A stretch of DNA of 64,000 bases from Metabacillus sp. B2-18 (GTDB taxonomy: Bacteria > Bacillota > Bacilli > Bacillales > Bacillaceae), in NCBI RefSeq assembly GCF_021117275.1, contig NZ_CP088245.1, positions 471,501-535,500 of the forward strand, given 5' to 3'. A program made the position numbers and the translations under genes. Below, piece by piece: positions 53,101 to 64,000 of this stretch. The notes under the pieces were generated by a model. That model was given only the letters and a program-made list of their open reading frames with translations, was not told the DNA's origin and did no database searches. Numbering within the stretch: position 1 is the first letter of the stretch; each line of letters starts with the position of its first letter.

Positions 53101-53817
53101 ATGCTCAAGGAAAAAGTGATGCTGGTAGAAGATGATCATGATATACGTGAAGTTTTGCAATTATACCTATTAAAGGAAGGGTATTCTGTCATTCATGCTG
53201 AAGATGGCCTAACGGCATTACAATTAGTAGAAACGGAAAAGCCTGATATCATCGTTTTGGACGTAGTACTTCCGCGGATGGATGGGTTTGAGGTATGTCG
53301 TTTACTTCGTCAAAAAACAAATATTCCTATCTTGTTTTTGAGCTCAAAAGAAGATGAATTTGATAAGATATTGGGGCACAAAATTGGTGGGGATGATTAC
53401 ATTACTAAACCCTTTAGTCCAGCTCTTGTAACAGTGAAAATTCAAGCCCATCTACGTCGGCATCATAATATTGATCACCAATTAAGGCCTGTGAAGGAGC
53501 AGTTTTTGAAAAAAATAGAATATCCAGGATTAATTATAGATAAAGTAAGCTGTGTTGTAAAAGTGAATGGTGCAACTGTCCCCTTGTCTACAAAGGAATA
53601 TCAACTCCTTTGTTTATTAGCAGAACATCCTAATCGTGTTTATAGTGTTGAAGATTTATTTGAACTAATCTGGGGGGGAGAAAGCCTAGGTGACCACCGT
53701 ACAGTTATGGTTCATATAAGTAATTTACGCAAAAAAATTGAACCTATACCAGCCGATCCCATGTATATTGTTACAGTTAGAGGGATGGGGTATAAATTCA
53801 TTGCTTCTCAGGAGTGA
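53101..53817 (+). CDS. OmpR/PhoB-family response regulator
   Basis: A 238-residue response regulator. The receiver domain (1-118) has the acidic pocket EDD (10-12), phosphoacceptor Asp54 (IIVLDVVLP) and Lys103 (YITKPF). A winged-helix DNA-binding domain (about 135-238) contains STKEYQLLCLLAEHPNRVYS and ends RGMGYKF. It lies just before the giant sensor kinase on the same strand, separated only by an opposite-strand SinI-like gene, and is the likely partner of that kinase. Target genes are unknown. Confidence 0.92.
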   Translation: MLKEKVMLVEDDHDIREVLQLYLLKEGYSVIHAEDGLTALQLVETEKPDIIVLDVVLPRMDGFEVCRLLRQKTNIPILFLSSKEDEFDKILGHKIGGDDYITKPFSPALVTVKIQAHLRRHHNIDHQLRPVKEQFLKKIEYPGLIIDKVSCVVKVNGATVPLSTKEYQLLCLLAEHPNRVYSVEDLFELIWGGESLGDHRTVMVHISNLRKKIEPIPADPMYIVTVRGMGYKFIASQE

Positions 53818-53818
53818 G

Positions 53819-53953
53819 TTAGTTATTTTTAAAAAAGTTGTGTATTTCTTCGGGAGTCATGCCAAGGTTTTTTGCTTCCAAGATGAGCTGTACCCATTCC
53901 TGGTCTATCTCTTGATCATCATTACTGCAATTCAATAGATTCGTTTTTTCCAT
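53819..53953 (-). CDS. SinI-like anti-repressor, 44 residues
   Basis: A short ORF behind GGAGG seven bases before the ATG. The segment DQEWVQLILEAKNLGMTPEE (17-36) closely resembles the dimerisation helix of SinI (DQEWVELMVEAKEANISPEE in B. subtilis, from memory), which binds SinR and frees biofilm genes from repression. The SinR partner is not in this window. It is convergent with the response regulator (one base between stops) and divergent from the giant kinase, so it may share that kinase's control region. Confidence 0.85.
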   Translation of the reverse strand: MEKTNLLNCSNDDQEIDQEWVQLILEAKNLGMTPEEIHNFFKNN

Positions 53954-54012
53954 CTCCAAACCTCCATGAACATTCCTACATAAATATAATAATGTTAAAA
54001 CTATAAGGTCTG

Positions 54013-54040
54013 TTTAAGATTACTTAAAGTTTAGTTAAAG
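54013..54040. promoter_or_regulatory. TTAA direct repeats, candidate response-regulator site
   Basis: TTTAAG, CTTAAAG and GTTAAAG occur in a row, with TTAA cores at 54014, 54024 and 54035 (10- and 11-base steps). This is the layout of PhoP/OmpR-family direct-repeat boxes. It lies between the divergent SinI-like and kinase genes, 30-55 bases from the kinase start. Confidence 0.4.
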
Positions 54041-54068
54041 AATTGGAAATTCCTAAAGGATGACAATA

Positions 54069-57000
54069 ATGAACAGAATGCCGATATTAAATAACTATAA
54101 AATAATTAATATTGAAGTTGAAAATAGTAAATCAATTATCTATAAAGGATATTCTTTACAAGAAAAAAAGCTTGTTCTATTGAAGACCATGAAACAGTCT
54201 ACCCCACCCCCGCACGAAACTGCATCCAGCATACATGAATTTTACATAACAAAAGAAATGAATATGGATGAAATTATCCGTCCAGTCAAAATAGAAAGTT
54301 ATTTAAATGAACCAATCCTAGTGTTGGAATATTTCTCTGGTGTTACCATGAGAGACTTTCTTAAAACTCAAAGGAAGGATATTTTAGAATTTCTTTCTAT
54401 TGCAGTTAAACTAGCATCTGCTTTAATAAATGTACATCAACATCAGATCATCCACAAAAATATAAATCCTGAAAACATAATTCTTAATACATCAAATGGT
54501 CAAATGAAGATTACGGGATTTAATCATGCAACAAAACTAAAAAAGGAAAACCAGAGTAATAGTTTAACTCCGTATGAACTTGAAGGTCATCTTGCTTATA
54601 TTTCTCCTGAGCAAACTGGTAGAATGAACCGATCTGTAGATTATCGAGCAGATTTATATTCTCTTGGTGTTTTATTTTATGAAATGTTCACAGGAATTCA
54701 GCCTTTTACTAGTAATGAATCAATTGAGTTAGTACACGCGCACTTGGCAAAAACTCCTCAGAATCCAATTTCACTAAACGATAATATTCCAGAAAGTATT
54801 TCTAATATTATTATGAAGCTTTTAGCAAAAATTCCAGAAGATAGATATAAGAGTGCATTTGGGCTACGAGAAGACTTAAAAAAGTGTATGGATCAACTTC
54901 GGCTATTCGGTGAGATAGAAGTATTTCAGCTTGGACAGGATGATCCACTTAATGTCTTTGAGGTAGATGGTAAGCTATATGGAAGAAACGTAGAAATTGA
55001 AAAATTAAAATTGGCATTTAATAAGGTGAGTACAGGACATTCTGAGTTAGTGTTAATTCAAGGACATTCGGGTATAGGAAAAACTGCGCTTGTAAATGAA
55101 ATTCAAATTCCGCTTGTTAGAGAAAAAGGCTACTTTATATCTGGTAAGTTTGATTTACTCCAAAGACAGAAGCCATACTCACCAATACTTTCTGCATTTA
55201 AATTATTAATAAGGAAATTATTGACTGAAGGGGATACAAGAATACAGAACTGGAAAACAGCCATTGAACGTGAACTATTAGGTAGTGTTTCGATTATTAC
55301 ATCACTGATCCCGGAATTAAAATGGATAGTAGGGAGCAATTCGCAGGAAGAGGAGTTCTCAGTGAAGGATGCGCATCTACGATTTCATTTGATCTTCCAA
55401 AAATTCGTGAATGTATTCGCTACAAAGGACCACCCGTTAGTTCTATTTCTTGATGATCTTCAGTGGGCAGATACAGCCTCATTGGCATTGATTGAATATT
55501 TACTAACACACATAGATTGTCGTTACTTTTTATTAATAGGGGCTTATCGCGATAATGAGGTTGGAATTGAACACCCATTCACGGAAACCATTCATAATCT
55601 CGAAAAGAAGAAAGTTGCAATCTCAACAATTTCTTTAACTCCATTAAAGGAAAGTGTTGTTTGTCATTGGGTGGAAGAAACAATTATGAATGATGAAAAA
55701 GAGGCTAGAAAACTAGCTGAACTAATGTTCAGAATTACTCAAGGGAATCCGTTTTTTATAAAACAGCTTTTTCAATCTTTTTATGAAGATGAAACAATTT
55801 TCTTTAATGCGAATTTAGGGAAATGGTCTATTCAGTTTGATATGGTGATGAAAGTCTTAGAAAAAGAAACGATAGTCGACTTAATGGTTAAAAGGATAGA
55901 GCAACTTCCAATGGAAACTCAGGCTATACTAAAACTAGCTTCGTGCATAGGTAATGAATTCGATTTAAAAACATTATCAATTATTTGTGAAGAAGAATAT
56001 GATAGGATCGGAAAACAACTATGGTCGGCTCTTGAAGTAGGGTTAATTTTACCAGAAGATTCAACTTATAAATGGATATATCCGGAAGGTCTCAAACAAT
56101 TTATAGATAATCAACCACCTGCATATCGATTCTTACATGATAGGGTTCAGCAAGCTATTCATTCTATGATTGTTAAAGAAGAGCGAGAAAAGACACACCT
56201 TAAAATAGGTAGACTCTTAATCAGGTTTGGAGCAGGTAATGATTCTTTATTCGAAATTGTTAATCATTTAAATATCGGAAGAAAGTACCTAAATAAGAAT
56301 GAACTCATATCTTTAGTTGAGAAAAATGTAAAAGCTGGTGAACAAGCAAAAGCATCAGCTGCATTTAAGGAGTCACTTGAATATTATAAAATAGCACACG
56401 AGTTACTTGGTGAAGCATGGGAAACAAATTATGATTTAACAATCAGGTTAATGACGGGTCTTGGTGAATGTCAATATTTAAACAGTCAATTTGATGAATC
56501 TGAATCTACATTTAACCAAGTGTTGGAACGTGTTAAGACAAAACATGAAAAGTTAGAAATTTATAACCTTAAAGTTGTCCTTTATACACATGTTCATCGT
56601 GTACAAGAGGCTGTAGAATCTGGGATTGCTGGATTAAGACTATTTGGATGGAATATTAATCGCAATCCAAATAAGAGGTTAGTTGCAAAAGAGTTTCTTT
56701 TCGTTAAAGCAGCACTGTGGGGGAAAAGTGCAGAAGATTTAATGAAGCTTCCTGAACTAATAGATCAAGAAAAACGATTATTATTAAATACGATGATAAC
56801 GATGAATGCACCATCTTTTCACGTTGATCAAAATTTAGCAACTATTTTAATGCTAAGAGCATTACGTTTTTCTCTAAAAAACGGAATCACTGATATCACA
56901 TCTTTAGTAGTTAATAATTACGCACTTATTTTAAGTGCTGGTTTTAGTGACTATGATCATAGCTATGAGTTTGGTAAGCTTGCAATTGAACTTGCTGAAG

Positions 57001-59249
57001 GTTCTGGTGATCCAGGGTTAAAAGGAAGAGTGTATTTTGTTTATGGTAGCTTTATTAATCATTGGAAGCACCACATTAAAGATAATTTACAATACTTGAA
57101 ATGGTCGCAGCACTTTTGTATAGAGGCGGGAAATATTCACCTTGCTGGAGCGAATAGTTCTTTTATCGCGATTACACTGTTTATGATGGGAGATCACTTA
57201 AAGGATGTACTTGCTGGTATTAAGAATCAACGCATATTTATAGATCGAATCGGATATGTCATTTCGAAAGGATTTTTAAATGAACTGATACAATGGGTCG
57301 ACATTTTAATGAACGAAAAAGCAAAAACAAGTTGGGATTTTGAACAAGTTTTAGATGATGATTCAGCCAAAATCATTCATTATACATTAAGGTTACAGTT
57401 GTCTTATTTGTTTAATGAAGAGAATTTTGCGAGTAATTTAATCAATCATTTAGATAAATTAGTAAGTAATCGATTAACTCTAGTTATTATATCTGAGTAT
57501 TATTTTTATGATTCTCTTTGGGCTTCACGATTATATGATAAGGCAGACTCATCAAATAAAAAGTTACTTTATAAAAGAATCAAAAAAAATATCAAGAAAC
57601 TCGGAAGATGGGCAAAGCTTTGTCCGGAAAATTATCTTCATAAATGGAAACTATTAAAAGCTGAATTAGCAAAAATAGATCATAATCATTCCATTGCAAG
57701 GAATGAATATGATGCAGCTATTCAGTTGGCAAAGGAAAATAACTTTGTTCAAGATGTTGCTATTAGTAATGAAGCTGCAGGTTATTATTATTTTTCAAGA
57801 GGTCTTGAAAGCTTAGCTGGCGCTTATTTGACAGAAGCATACCGTACGTATATGAAATGGGGTGCGTATGCAAAAGCCCTTAAATTACAAAAGGAATTTG
57901 ATAGCTTCATTATTAATGTAGAAAAAAGCGGTCCTGATTTTCAGATTTCTCAATTTGATTTTGATGCTTCATTAAAAGCCTCTCAAGCGATATCGAGTGA
58001 GATTATCCAAGAAAATCTGGTGAAGAAGTTAATGGATATTACAATGCGAAATGCTGGTGCAGAGCGCGGAATTCTTCTGCTTAATAGGGAAAAACAATTA
58101 ACTGTAGCAGCTGCAGCCAATATTGATAGCGAAATAGATGAAGAGTTATCCTTTCATATAGTAGAAGAAAACAAAGTATACCCTGAAATGGTTATTCAAT
58201 ATGTAGTTAATAGCAGGGAGGCTGTTGTATTAAATGATGCAACAGTAGAAGGTATGTTTACAGGTGATCCATATGTGATTGCCGAAAAGCCAAAGTCTAT
58301 TTTATGTCTACCAACAATTTATAAAGGAAATGTAAATAGTGTTTTATATCTTGAGAATAATCAAACAACATATGCATTTACTCAAGAAAGAATAAAGTTT
58401 TTAACTTTTCTTTCTACACAAGCGGCAATATCTATAGAAAATGCAGAACTTTATGGAAATCTTGAAGGAAAAGTAAAAGAGCGTACAAAAGAGTTTGAAA
58501 AAGTCAACAAACACCTCGAACAAGCAAATAGCGAACTTGCTAGAGCAGAACAAGAACGTAGGCATTTGTTATCGAATATATCACATGATTTAAGAGCCCC
58601 TATTACAACAGTAAGGGGGTATGTTGAGGCGATATTGGATGGATTAGTAGAAACAGAAGACCAAAGGGATGCGTATTTGAGGAGATGTATTGAAAGAATA
58701 GACGGGTTGAATGTAATGATTAATGATTTATTTGAACTTGCCCAATTAGAATCTCGACAAATCAATTTTTCGTTTGACATTGTCCCAATTGATCAATTGA
58801 TAAAACGTTTATGTAGTCAATATGAATATGATATAAAAAGTAAGGGTTTTTTCTTTAACGTAATAATTGAAGAAATCAATGAAGAAACATATCCAATGGT
58901 TTCGGTGGATGTAAAAAGATTTAATCAAGTTTTTTCAAATATACTTATAAATGCTACGAATCATATAAAAACAGGGGGGATCTCAATTTCTTTAAAATTT
59001 GATAAAGATCTTGGTGATGCCTTTATTACAATAGAAGATAGCGGGGAAGGTATTTTGGAGGAAGATCTTCCTTATATATTTGATCGGAACTTTACGAGAT
59101 CAAGAAAAGGAAATGGACTCGGATTAGCAATCTGTAGAGAAATTATTCTTTTGCACAAGGGGCGTATATGGGCAGAAAGCATACACGGTGAAGGCTCAAT
59201 ATTTTGTATTCAATTACCGGTCTTTCAGGTAGATCAACTAATAAGGTGA
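54069..59249 (+). CDS. degenerate Ser/Thr kinase-AAA ATPase-GAF-sensor histidine kinase fusion
   Basis: A 1726-residue cytoplasmic multidomain sensor. The protein-kinase-like domain (about 10-280) lacks key residues. The catalytic loop is HKNINPEN (129-136), with Asn for HRD Asp and Asn for the following Lys, and DFG is GFN (150-152), so it is probably a pseudokinase. An AAA/STAND-type ATPase follows with Walker A GHSGIGKTA (332-340) and Walker B LVLFLDDLQWAD (about 460). A long helical, TPR-like region runs about 720-1290. A GAF domain (about 1305-1465) and a complete histidine kinase (SHDLRAP, His1506; N-box NILINATNH; GLGLAICRE) follow. The start at 54069 lies eight bases after AAAGGA. Confidence 0.9.
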   Translation: MNRMPILNNYKIINIEVENSKSIIYKGYSLQEKKLVLLKTMKQSTPPPHETASSIHEFYITKEMNMDEIIRPVKIESYLNEPILVLEYFSGVTMRDFLKTQRKDILEFLSIAVKLASALINVHQHQIIHKNINPENIILNTSNGQMKITGFNHATKLKKENQSNSLTPYELEGHLAYISPEQTGRMNRSVDYRADLYSLGVLFYEMFTGIQPFTSNESIELVHAHLAKTPQNPISLNDNIPESISNIIMKLLAKIPEDRYKSAFGLREDLKKCMDQLRLFGEIEVFQLGQDDPLNVFEVDGKLYGRNVEIEKLKLAFNKVSTGHSELVLIQGHSGIGKTALVNEIQIPLVREKGYFISGKFDLLQRQKPYSPILSAFKLLIRKLLTEGDTRIQNWKTAIERELLGSVSIITSLIPELKWIVGSNSQEEEFSVKDAHLRFHLIFQKFVNVFATKDHPLVLFLDDLQWADTASLALIEYLLTHIDCRYFLLIGAYRDNEVGIEHPFTETIHNLEKKKVAISTISLTPLKESVVCHWVEETIMNDEKEARKLAELMFRITQGNPFFIKQLFQSFYEDETIFFNANLGKWSIQFDMVMKVLEKETIVDLMVKRIEQLPMETQAILKLASCIGNEFDLKTLSIICEEEYDRIGKQLWSALEVGLILPEDSTYKWIYPEGLKQFIDNQPPAYRFLHDRVQQAIHSMIVKEEREKTHLKIGRLLIRFGAGNDSLFEIVNHLNIGRKYLNKNELISLVEKNVKAGEQAKASAAFKESLEYYKIAHELLGEAWETNYDLTIRLMTGLGECQYLNSQFDESESTFNQVLERVKTKHEKLEIYNLKVVLYTHVHRVQEAVESGIAGLRLFGWNINRNPNKRLVAKEFLFVKAALWGKSAEDLMKLPELIDQEKRLLLNTMITMNAPSFHVDQNLATILMLRALRFSLKNGITDITSLVVNNYALILSAGFSDYDHSYEFGKLAIELAEGSGDPGLKGRVYFVYGSFINHWKHHIKDNLQYLKWSQHFCIEAGNIHLAGANSSFIAITLFMMGDHLKDVLAGIKNQRIFIDRIGYVISKGFLNELIQWVDILMNEKAKTSWDFEQVLDDDSAKIIHYTLRLQLSYLFNEENFASNLINHLDKLVSNRLTLVIISEYYFYDSLWASRLYDKADSSNKKLLYKRIKKNIKKLGRWAKLCPENYLHKWKLLKAELAKIDHNHSIARNEYDAAIQLAKENNFVQDVAISNEAAGYYYFSRGLESLAGAYLTEAYRTYMKWGAYAKALKLQKEFDSFIINVEKSGPDFQISQFDFDASLKASQAISSEIIQENLVKKLMDITMRNAGAERGILLLNREKQLTVAAAANIDSEIDEELSFHIVEENKVYPEMVIQYVVNSREAVVLNDATVEGMFTGDPYVIAEKPKSILCLPTIYKGNVNSVLYLENNQTTYAFTQERIKFLTFLSTQAAISIENAELYGNLEGKVKERTKEFEKVNKHLEQANSELARAEQERRHLLSNISHDLRAPITTVRGYVEAILDGLVETEDQRDAYLRRCIERIDGLNVMINDLFELAQLESRQINFSFDIVPIDQLIKRLCSQYEYDIKSKGFFFNVIIEEINEETYPMVSVDVKRFNQVFSNILINATNHIKTGGISISLKFDKDLGDAFITIEDSGEGILEEDLPYIFDRNFTRSRKGNGLGLAICREIILLHKGRIWAESIHGEGSIFCIQLPVFQVDQLIR

Positions 59250-59780: not shown

Positions 59781-64000
<4,220 letters not shown>

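Follow-up and report, generated by a model that had tools for sequence, protein, structure and literature searches.

The 64,000-nt stretch of Metabacillus sp. B2-18 DNA analysed here (the window, whose positions serve as coordinates for the locus) carries a three-gene locus in which a short open reading frame (ORF) of the SinI anti-repressor family lies antisense between the genes for an OmpR-family response regulator (RR) and a giant sensor kinase (Table 1). The SinI-like stop codon occupies positions 53819-53821, and a single base separates the RR and SinI-like stops. An earlier note on this DNA had given this gap, the gene order and the strands exactly as they are found in the sequence, whereas the divergent region between the sinI-like and kinase genes, which it put at 115 bases, is present but measures 100-115 bases according to the start codons chosen. 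We regard ATG 53953 as the likelier start of the SinI-like ORF, since the listed TTG 53959 abuts the ribosome-binding site.

Table 1 Features of the RR, SinI-like and sensor kinase locus (window positions).
Feature	Position	Strand	Description
OmpR-family RR	53101..53817	+	238 aa, receiver and winged helix
SinI-family anti-repressor ORF	53819..53953	-	44 aa from ATG 53953; 46 aa from TTG 53959
GGAGGT ribosome-binding site of SinI-like gene	53960..53965	-	from sequence; 6 nt from ATG 53953
Putative -10 TATAGT of SinI-like gene	54000..54005	-	fourth 11-bp register, CTTATAGT
Putative RR-binding array, three 7-bp direct repeats, 11-bp period	54012..54040	-	from conservation; exact pattern once in own genome
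Giant sensor kinase	54060..59249	+	1729 aa; alternative ATG 54069

Searches for the kinase covered 120 relatives (13 matches) and 21 genomes of the genus (nine matches), both counts including the own genome, as well as 397 genomes of the order (22 matches) and 398 of the class (50 matches). Named genomes supplied four loci, of which L060-L062 are full-length relatives and L063, matching the kinase end alone, was left out. The analysed set comprised 34 loci, namely the window and 33 others. In 27 of them kinase identity ranged from 40 to 100%, and an RR ortholog was found directly upstream of the kinase in every case; 26 of these 27 also hold an antisense SinI-like ORF inside the RR-kinase gap (192-351 nt), with its stop within approximately 30 bases of the RR stop and the two stops overlapping in most loci. 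A check set beforehand, for relatives that carry kinase and RR without SinI, was run on these loci and returned a sole exception, G018, which keeps RR and kinase and has neither a SinI ORF nor the promoter array described below; a permissive profile search of its RR-kinase gap found no SinI reading frame. Chance neighbourhood of the three genes was rejected, given that the order recurs in 26 of the 27 loci. Among 25 genomes with the module ORF that were searched, 24 have a copy that passes the Pfam SinI cut-off; the copy of the other, G333, aligns with that in G163. The loci spread over 11 family labels. Occurrence is patchy: the module was found in 16 of the 397 genomes of the order, and in the genus all three genes occur in 8 of 21 genomes, G018 having two of them. 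Seven loci of lower identity (G175, G141, G040, G186, G108, G121 and a second copy in G392) lack this OmpR-type RR.

The SinI-like identity proposed earlier is borne out at family level, as the ORF matches Pfam SinI (PF08671) with 49.1 bits against a cut-off of 31.4 (E 4.7e-13); it has no helix-turn-helix (HTH) and, besides SinI, gave just a weak MerR match below cut-off. A profile of 14 SinI sequences, across which W20, L23, A27, G31 and F40 are invariant, matches the solved SinI structures 5tmx_A and 1b0n_B. Proportions of synonymous (pS) and non-synonymous (pN) differences in three distant pairs of SinI-like ORFs indicate coding constraint (pS 0.52-0.72 against pN 0.21-0.29); six close pairs hold few changes and are uninformative, pN lying above pS in three of them. 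On the strength of the Pfam match and of the distant pairs, a non-coding ORF was rejected. The genome also contains a canonical sinI-sinR pair approximately 2.85 Mb from the locus, and the ORF described here is therefore an additional SinI-family gene, not the standard one. Two more short ORFs with SinI domains (C1:2974666-2974728 and C1:4621391-4621456; 44 and 53 aa) lie elsewhere in this genome, both away from sinR, the 53-aa one scoring below the Pfam cut-off.

In the RR, Response_reg scored 98.2 bits and Trans_reg_C 93.4 bits, and the solved structures nearest to it by sequence include RegX3, MtrA and PhoP; a fixed LD-motif pattern matched the receiver Asp region in 24 of the 27 RRs, the other three being unmatched by that pattern. 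The kinase has Pfam Pkinase, AAA_16, GAF, HisKA and HATPase_c domains, laid out as a pseudokinase (aa 25-264), an AAA_16/STAND ATPase (305-492), a weak TPR match (769-825; TPR_12 at 24.6 bits, under its cut-off of 30.1), GAF (1319-1459), HisKA (1500-1565) and HATPase_c (1617-1721). The term pseudokinase, used in the earlier note, proved apt: HRD reads HKN and DFG reads GFN, the window kinase lacks the motifs of a catalytic Ser/Thr kinase, and the HRD and DFG Asp are replaced in all 26 alignable module kinases (G006, whose N-terminal piece is in another frame, was left out). As these motifs are lost, Ser/Thr kinase function is doubtful in this clade. The Walker A/B motifs and the H, N and G boxes of the histidine kinase are intact, and the two-component pair is complete, as had been claimed, with a receiver Asp and output domain in the RR and phospho-His, N and G boxes in the kinase. 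In the close relative G006 the kinase gene (L064) is split across two reading frames. When 8000 candidate proteins were scored, 66 of the best 120 listed had at least 40% identity to the kinase and lengths of 1719-1762 aa; where the source name gives the organism these are from Bacilli, mostly Bacillaceae-type genera, one being given just as 'Bacillota'. Those below them among the 120 share 32-39% identity and include many cyanobacterial proteins. Two proteins among the 66 bear the name 'trifunctional serine/threonine-protein kinase/ATP-binding protein/sensor histidine kinase'.

Apart from tandem repeats, the interval between the sinI-like and kinase genes is poorly conserved. Repeats of the type CTTTAAC-N4-CTTTAAG-N4-CTTAAAC, with an 11-bp period, run toward the SinI-like gene in all 26 intervals (CTTTAAC-TAAA-CTTTAAG-TAAT-CTTAAAC in the window), and self-match at lag 11 is 0.675, against 0.42-0.59 at the other lags from 5 to 25. 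In 15 of the 26 loci the fourth register is TATAGT or TATACT, and in 19 it contains TATA; in the window this element lies 46 nt before the SinI-like ATG. PhoB/PhoP-type regulators activate from tandem direct repeats with an 11-bp period placed just upstream of the -10 element. The same arrangement is found here, and with an assumed start site the boxes, centred near -46, -35 and -24, would fit activation of this type.

A position matrix built from the 26 loci gave the array 23-50 bits, against at most 13.2 at the 734,948 other positions of these loci, and -20.9 in G018. Because this matrix scored its own training sites, it was retrained on the seven loci closest to the window; on the 19 other SinI-bearing loci the core then scored 8-36.5 and in 16 of them outscored every other site of the locus, by a small margin in G163 (9.1 against 8.7). 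Further targets were sought by pattern only, in the own genome and in 26 genomes. The exact pattern occurs once in the own genome, at the locus, and with three mismatches it was found at five other places (plus an overlapping register of the same array), against four control matches. Across the 26 genomes, 34 matches with at most two mismatches comprised 19 module sites (19 genomes), seven sites at canonical sinI (five genomes) and eight elsewhere, which is control level, the reversed pattern giving ten; in G276, G372, G333, G163, G392 and G196 this pattern misses the module site, which is too degenerate there. One array with a single mismatch, in G012 (L183:667-694), lies just upstream of an ORF resembling a TetR-type regulator.

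The array probably concerns the sinI-like gene, toward which it points, since G018 retains RR and kinase and has neither SinI nor array. The earlier note had proposed a regulatory link from the sensor to expression of the SinI-like gene, and at the level of comparative genomics this putative link is supported by the three conserved genes, the conserved array and its absence together with SinI in G018. SinI/SinR is a textbook cell-fate switch whose known main input is Spo0A. We think it quite probable that the locus is a dedicated two-component input to this switch, in which the sensor, acting through phosphorylated RR, would bring about transcription of an additional SinI and then antagonism of SinR. 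In such a pathway a STAND-type receptor kinase, with its dead kinase domain, AAA_16, TPR-like region and GAF, would sense a ligand or state and, to judge from adjacency, would phosphorylate the neighbouring OmpR/PhoP-like RR. The phosphorylated RR would bind the tandem array, a site indicated by its conservation, and activate the divergent gene, the -10-like element of which is placed behind the array as at PhoB/PhoP-type promoters. The helical hairpin of the SinI family would then sequester SinR or a SinR paralog, and matrix genes might be derepressed without the Spo0A route to canonical sinI. For SinR binding, and for an effect on biofilm formation or sporulation, we infer rather than observe.

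Several observations weigh against this proposal. At class level, L210, L212 and L213 combine an OmpR-type RR (46-47% identity) with the kinase and have no SinI in the stretch read, so that the RR-kinase pair seems to be older and SinI to have been added within Bacillales; they belong to a set of nine class-level loci read on the upstream side and seven further ones, none of which showed SinI. Seven of the 26 loci have no TATA at the -10-like element, and the retrained matrix preferred another site to the array in G276 (11.9 against 12.4), G402 (14.0 against 18.1) and G333 (8.0 against 13.2). Against the NCBIfam SinI equivalog NF046031 the module SinI reaches 37 bits, where the cut-off is 80, and for this reason it was not filed as an orthologous SinI; neither does it lie directly upstream of sinR, the position that goes with the equivalog. 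A tree of module and canonical SinI cores (approximately 38-40 aa) did not settle their relative placement and was not used.

The genomic context of SinR speaks partly for and partly against the proposal. All 26 searched genomes with the RR-kinase pair, including G018, have a SinR ortholog (the L060 genome was outside this set), which is weak, mildly informative evidence because 292 of the 397 order genomes have SinR; a value of 0.735^16, approximately 0.007, for the 16 module genomes of the order would hold for independent draws, and genomes are not independent. Nine proteins from three genomes, used as tblastn queries (E 1e-8) to survey the flanks for sinR and for genes of SipW, TasA or exopolysaccharide type, gave matches in 2 of the 27 loci and none near the other 25, with flanks of unequal length. 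These reached up to 20 kb to either side in most loci; G054, G042, G372 and G006 had a single long side, G008 and G439 had less, three named loci had 6 kb, and for Metabacillus sp. B2-18 the survey covered the window itself, where 16S and 23S rRNA genes (59782-64000) begin approximately 530 bp past the kinase gene. The two loci with matches are those of G124, where sinR directly follows the kinase and, by resemblance, a SipW-like and two TasA-like genes adjoin, and of G420, where sinR is 13 kb away and an XRE gene and polysaccharide-type genes, again by resemblance, lie upstream of the RR. The stretch L090:274-3404 of G124, in which the SipW-like and TasA-like genes adjoin sinR and the module, may be a matrix operon. 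In G124, G420, G163 and G333 sinR has no SinI-like ORF next to it, and the module SinI may therefore matter more in these genomes; all four hold other SinI-domain ORFs elsewhere, one of which, in G124, sits beside a SinR paralog approximately 5 kb from sinR.

The array also occurs at canonical sinI, in a form that fits the proposal incompletely. A strong copy (28-33 bits) lies approximately 230 bp upstream of the cyclic di-GMP (c-di-GMP)-I aptamer of canonical sinI in G011, G001, G003, G008 and G012 (L174-L178), that is, in five of the nine genomes of the genus that have both RR and kinase. G018 has a weak copy (16.7), and the own genome (G000), G015 and G006 have none; these arrays point away from sinI. 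Among the 12 genus genomes without the module, the canonical sinI region was captured for 11 (all but G007), and none has a strong copy, weak ones being present in G016 and G017 (18.9 and 19.1). Given this orientation, the patchy presence and the weak copies without a module, another regulator may bind there, and we treat the canonical-sinI array as partial evidence only, since two module-less genomes have weak versions of it. The leader of canonical sinI in the own genome carries a c-di-GMP-I aptamer (L003:1344-1427), and such a riboswitch was found at canonical sinI in 10 of 12 loci, as well as in 14 of 20 further loci, some of them without canonical sinI. Its novelty was rejected, because the excerpts of PMC4342826 already report a c-di-GMP riboswitch at canonical sinI for B. 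methanolicus.

The alternative that survives best, although we consider it unlikely, accepts that the module drives the SinI-like gene and assigns the protein another partner: an SlrR-like SinR paralog, another SinI-domain protein or the kinase. The own genome already has a canonical sinI, many module genomes contain SinR paralogs, and the SinI core reads EAK in many module copies, against EAL in most canonical ones; on the other hand, the module SinI profile matches solved SinI, a clear SinR ortholog occurs in 26 of 26 genomes, and in a few of them (e.g. G042, G454 and G444) no second full-length SinR match was obtained at E 1e-6. We find it improbable that the array instead autoregulates the kinase gene or the RR-kinase pair and that the SinI-like gene is just carried along between them. 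Autoregulation is common among OmpR-type regulators and the window array ends approximately 20 bp before the kinase start, but the repeats read toward the sinI-like gene, with TATAGT or TATACT following on that strand in 15 loci of the 26; a scan of all other positions of each locus, among them those upstream of the RR, gave no score above 13.2 bits; and G018 lacks the array while keeping both genes that it would control. Still less probable is a site for a different OmpR-family regulator such as PhoP, which would place the SinI-like gene in the phosphate regulon: the half-sites do resemble PhoP boxes (TTAACA-like, 11-bp period) and weak copies occur at canonical sinI in two module-less genomes, yet recurrence at many phosphate genes would be expected, whereas the own genome has the exact array just once and matches elsewhere in the 26 genomes are at control level.

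No terminator was found in the interval between RR and kinase, and the sinI-like gene may thus sit antisense inside one RR-kinase transcription unit. That its transcript is mainly an antisense RNA giving feedback on RR-kinase read-through, with the peptide secondary, is the least probable reading of all, for although the closely spaced or overlapping stops, the missing terminator and the excess of pN in three of six close pairs (with few changes) would suit it, the distant pairs, the five invariant residues and the Pfam matches in 24 of 25 genomes speak for a protein.

Relatives of the receptor occur near SinI in other layouts as well. In G175, a 1550-aa relative (L104:4969-9910) has a LuxR-type HTH at its end in place of the kinase, with a SinI ORF (39.1 bits) 60-120 nt downstream, and the second relative in G392 (L110:3724-7886; 1263 aa, STAND-GAF-LuxR HTH) has one of 41.6 bits approximately 200 nt upstream on the same strand. 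The G040 relative combines a HisKA_3 kinase with a NarL-type RR, with sinI-sinR approximately 3.3 kb downstream; G186 and G121 share its kinase motif and have, by profile search, a SinI/SinR pair 2-3 kb downstream, their RRs being weakly matched. G141 gave a weak SinI match (0.0031) and the upstream stretch of G108 none. The receptor family has apparently met SinI in more than one layout, perhaps in separate events, a view drawn from these layouts and not from a tree. A broader and more tentative idea, which we doubt slightly more than we believe, is that giant pseudokinase-STAND-TPR-GAF receptors in Bacillales are dedicated Spo0A-independent inputs to SinI/SinR, repeatedly coupled to it through outputs that differ (an OmpR-type two-component pair that has its own sinI, a NarL-type one close to sinI-sinR, a LuxR-fused one-component protein beside sinI), and that the SinI under their control is a main antagonist in some species whose sinR lacks a neighbouring sinI. 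If the proposed pathway is correct, a second SinI under a dedicated giant receptor gives the SinI/SinR switch a separate signal, a single simple transcriptional output makes that signal and receptor activation testable by reporter, and part of the widespread giant STAND/GAF kinase family acquires a concrete function.

A SinI-family anti-repressor under a dedicated regulator is already known, and it is the version with an RR and a giant kinase for which no description was found. The earlier note likewise knew of no described system of this composition, and our literature search, which left subscription journals largely outside, named none; novelty is thus provisional. The nearest regulatory analogue is B. 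subtilis SlrA, a SinI paralog which, in the excerpts of PMC10878085, is controlled by the TetR-type repressor YwcC, inhibits SinR and derepresses matrix genes. In B. subtilis, as is proposed here, an additional member of the SinI family has a dedicated regulator that responds to a signal; there this regulator is a one-component TetR repressor, whereas here it would be an RR paired with a giant histidine kinase of STAND type and acting at an array of 11-bp period. The canonical sinI-sinR pair likewise encodes a SinI-family protein and presumed SinR antagonist; the module SinI differs in that it is not next to sinR, has a different promoter and is accompanied by no riboswitch found in the window.

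The sensor has full-length homology and shared Pfam domains with giant Ser/Thr-kinase/ATPase/GAF/histidine kinases, a family that includes cyanobacterial hybrid kinases and whose source names are 'trifunctional' or 'ATP-binding sensor histidine kinase'; to cyanobacterial proteins the identity is approximately 35% over 99% of the query. It departs from the giant hybrid kinases in the replaced HRD and DFG Asp and in that its RR, of OmpR type, is a separate protein accompanied by a SinI gene, where those have a fused receiver. The promoter resembles those of PhoB/PhoP type in its tandem direct repeats with an 11-bp period just upstream of -10, and differs in its half-site (CTTTAAC/G, against CTGTCAT or TTAACA) and in having apparently a single strong target in the own genome. 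Finally, a gene embedded antisense between two co-directional genes recalls noncontiguous operons and excludons, with the difference that co-transcription of RR and kinase is here a possibility, which the interval, where no terminator was found, would allow.

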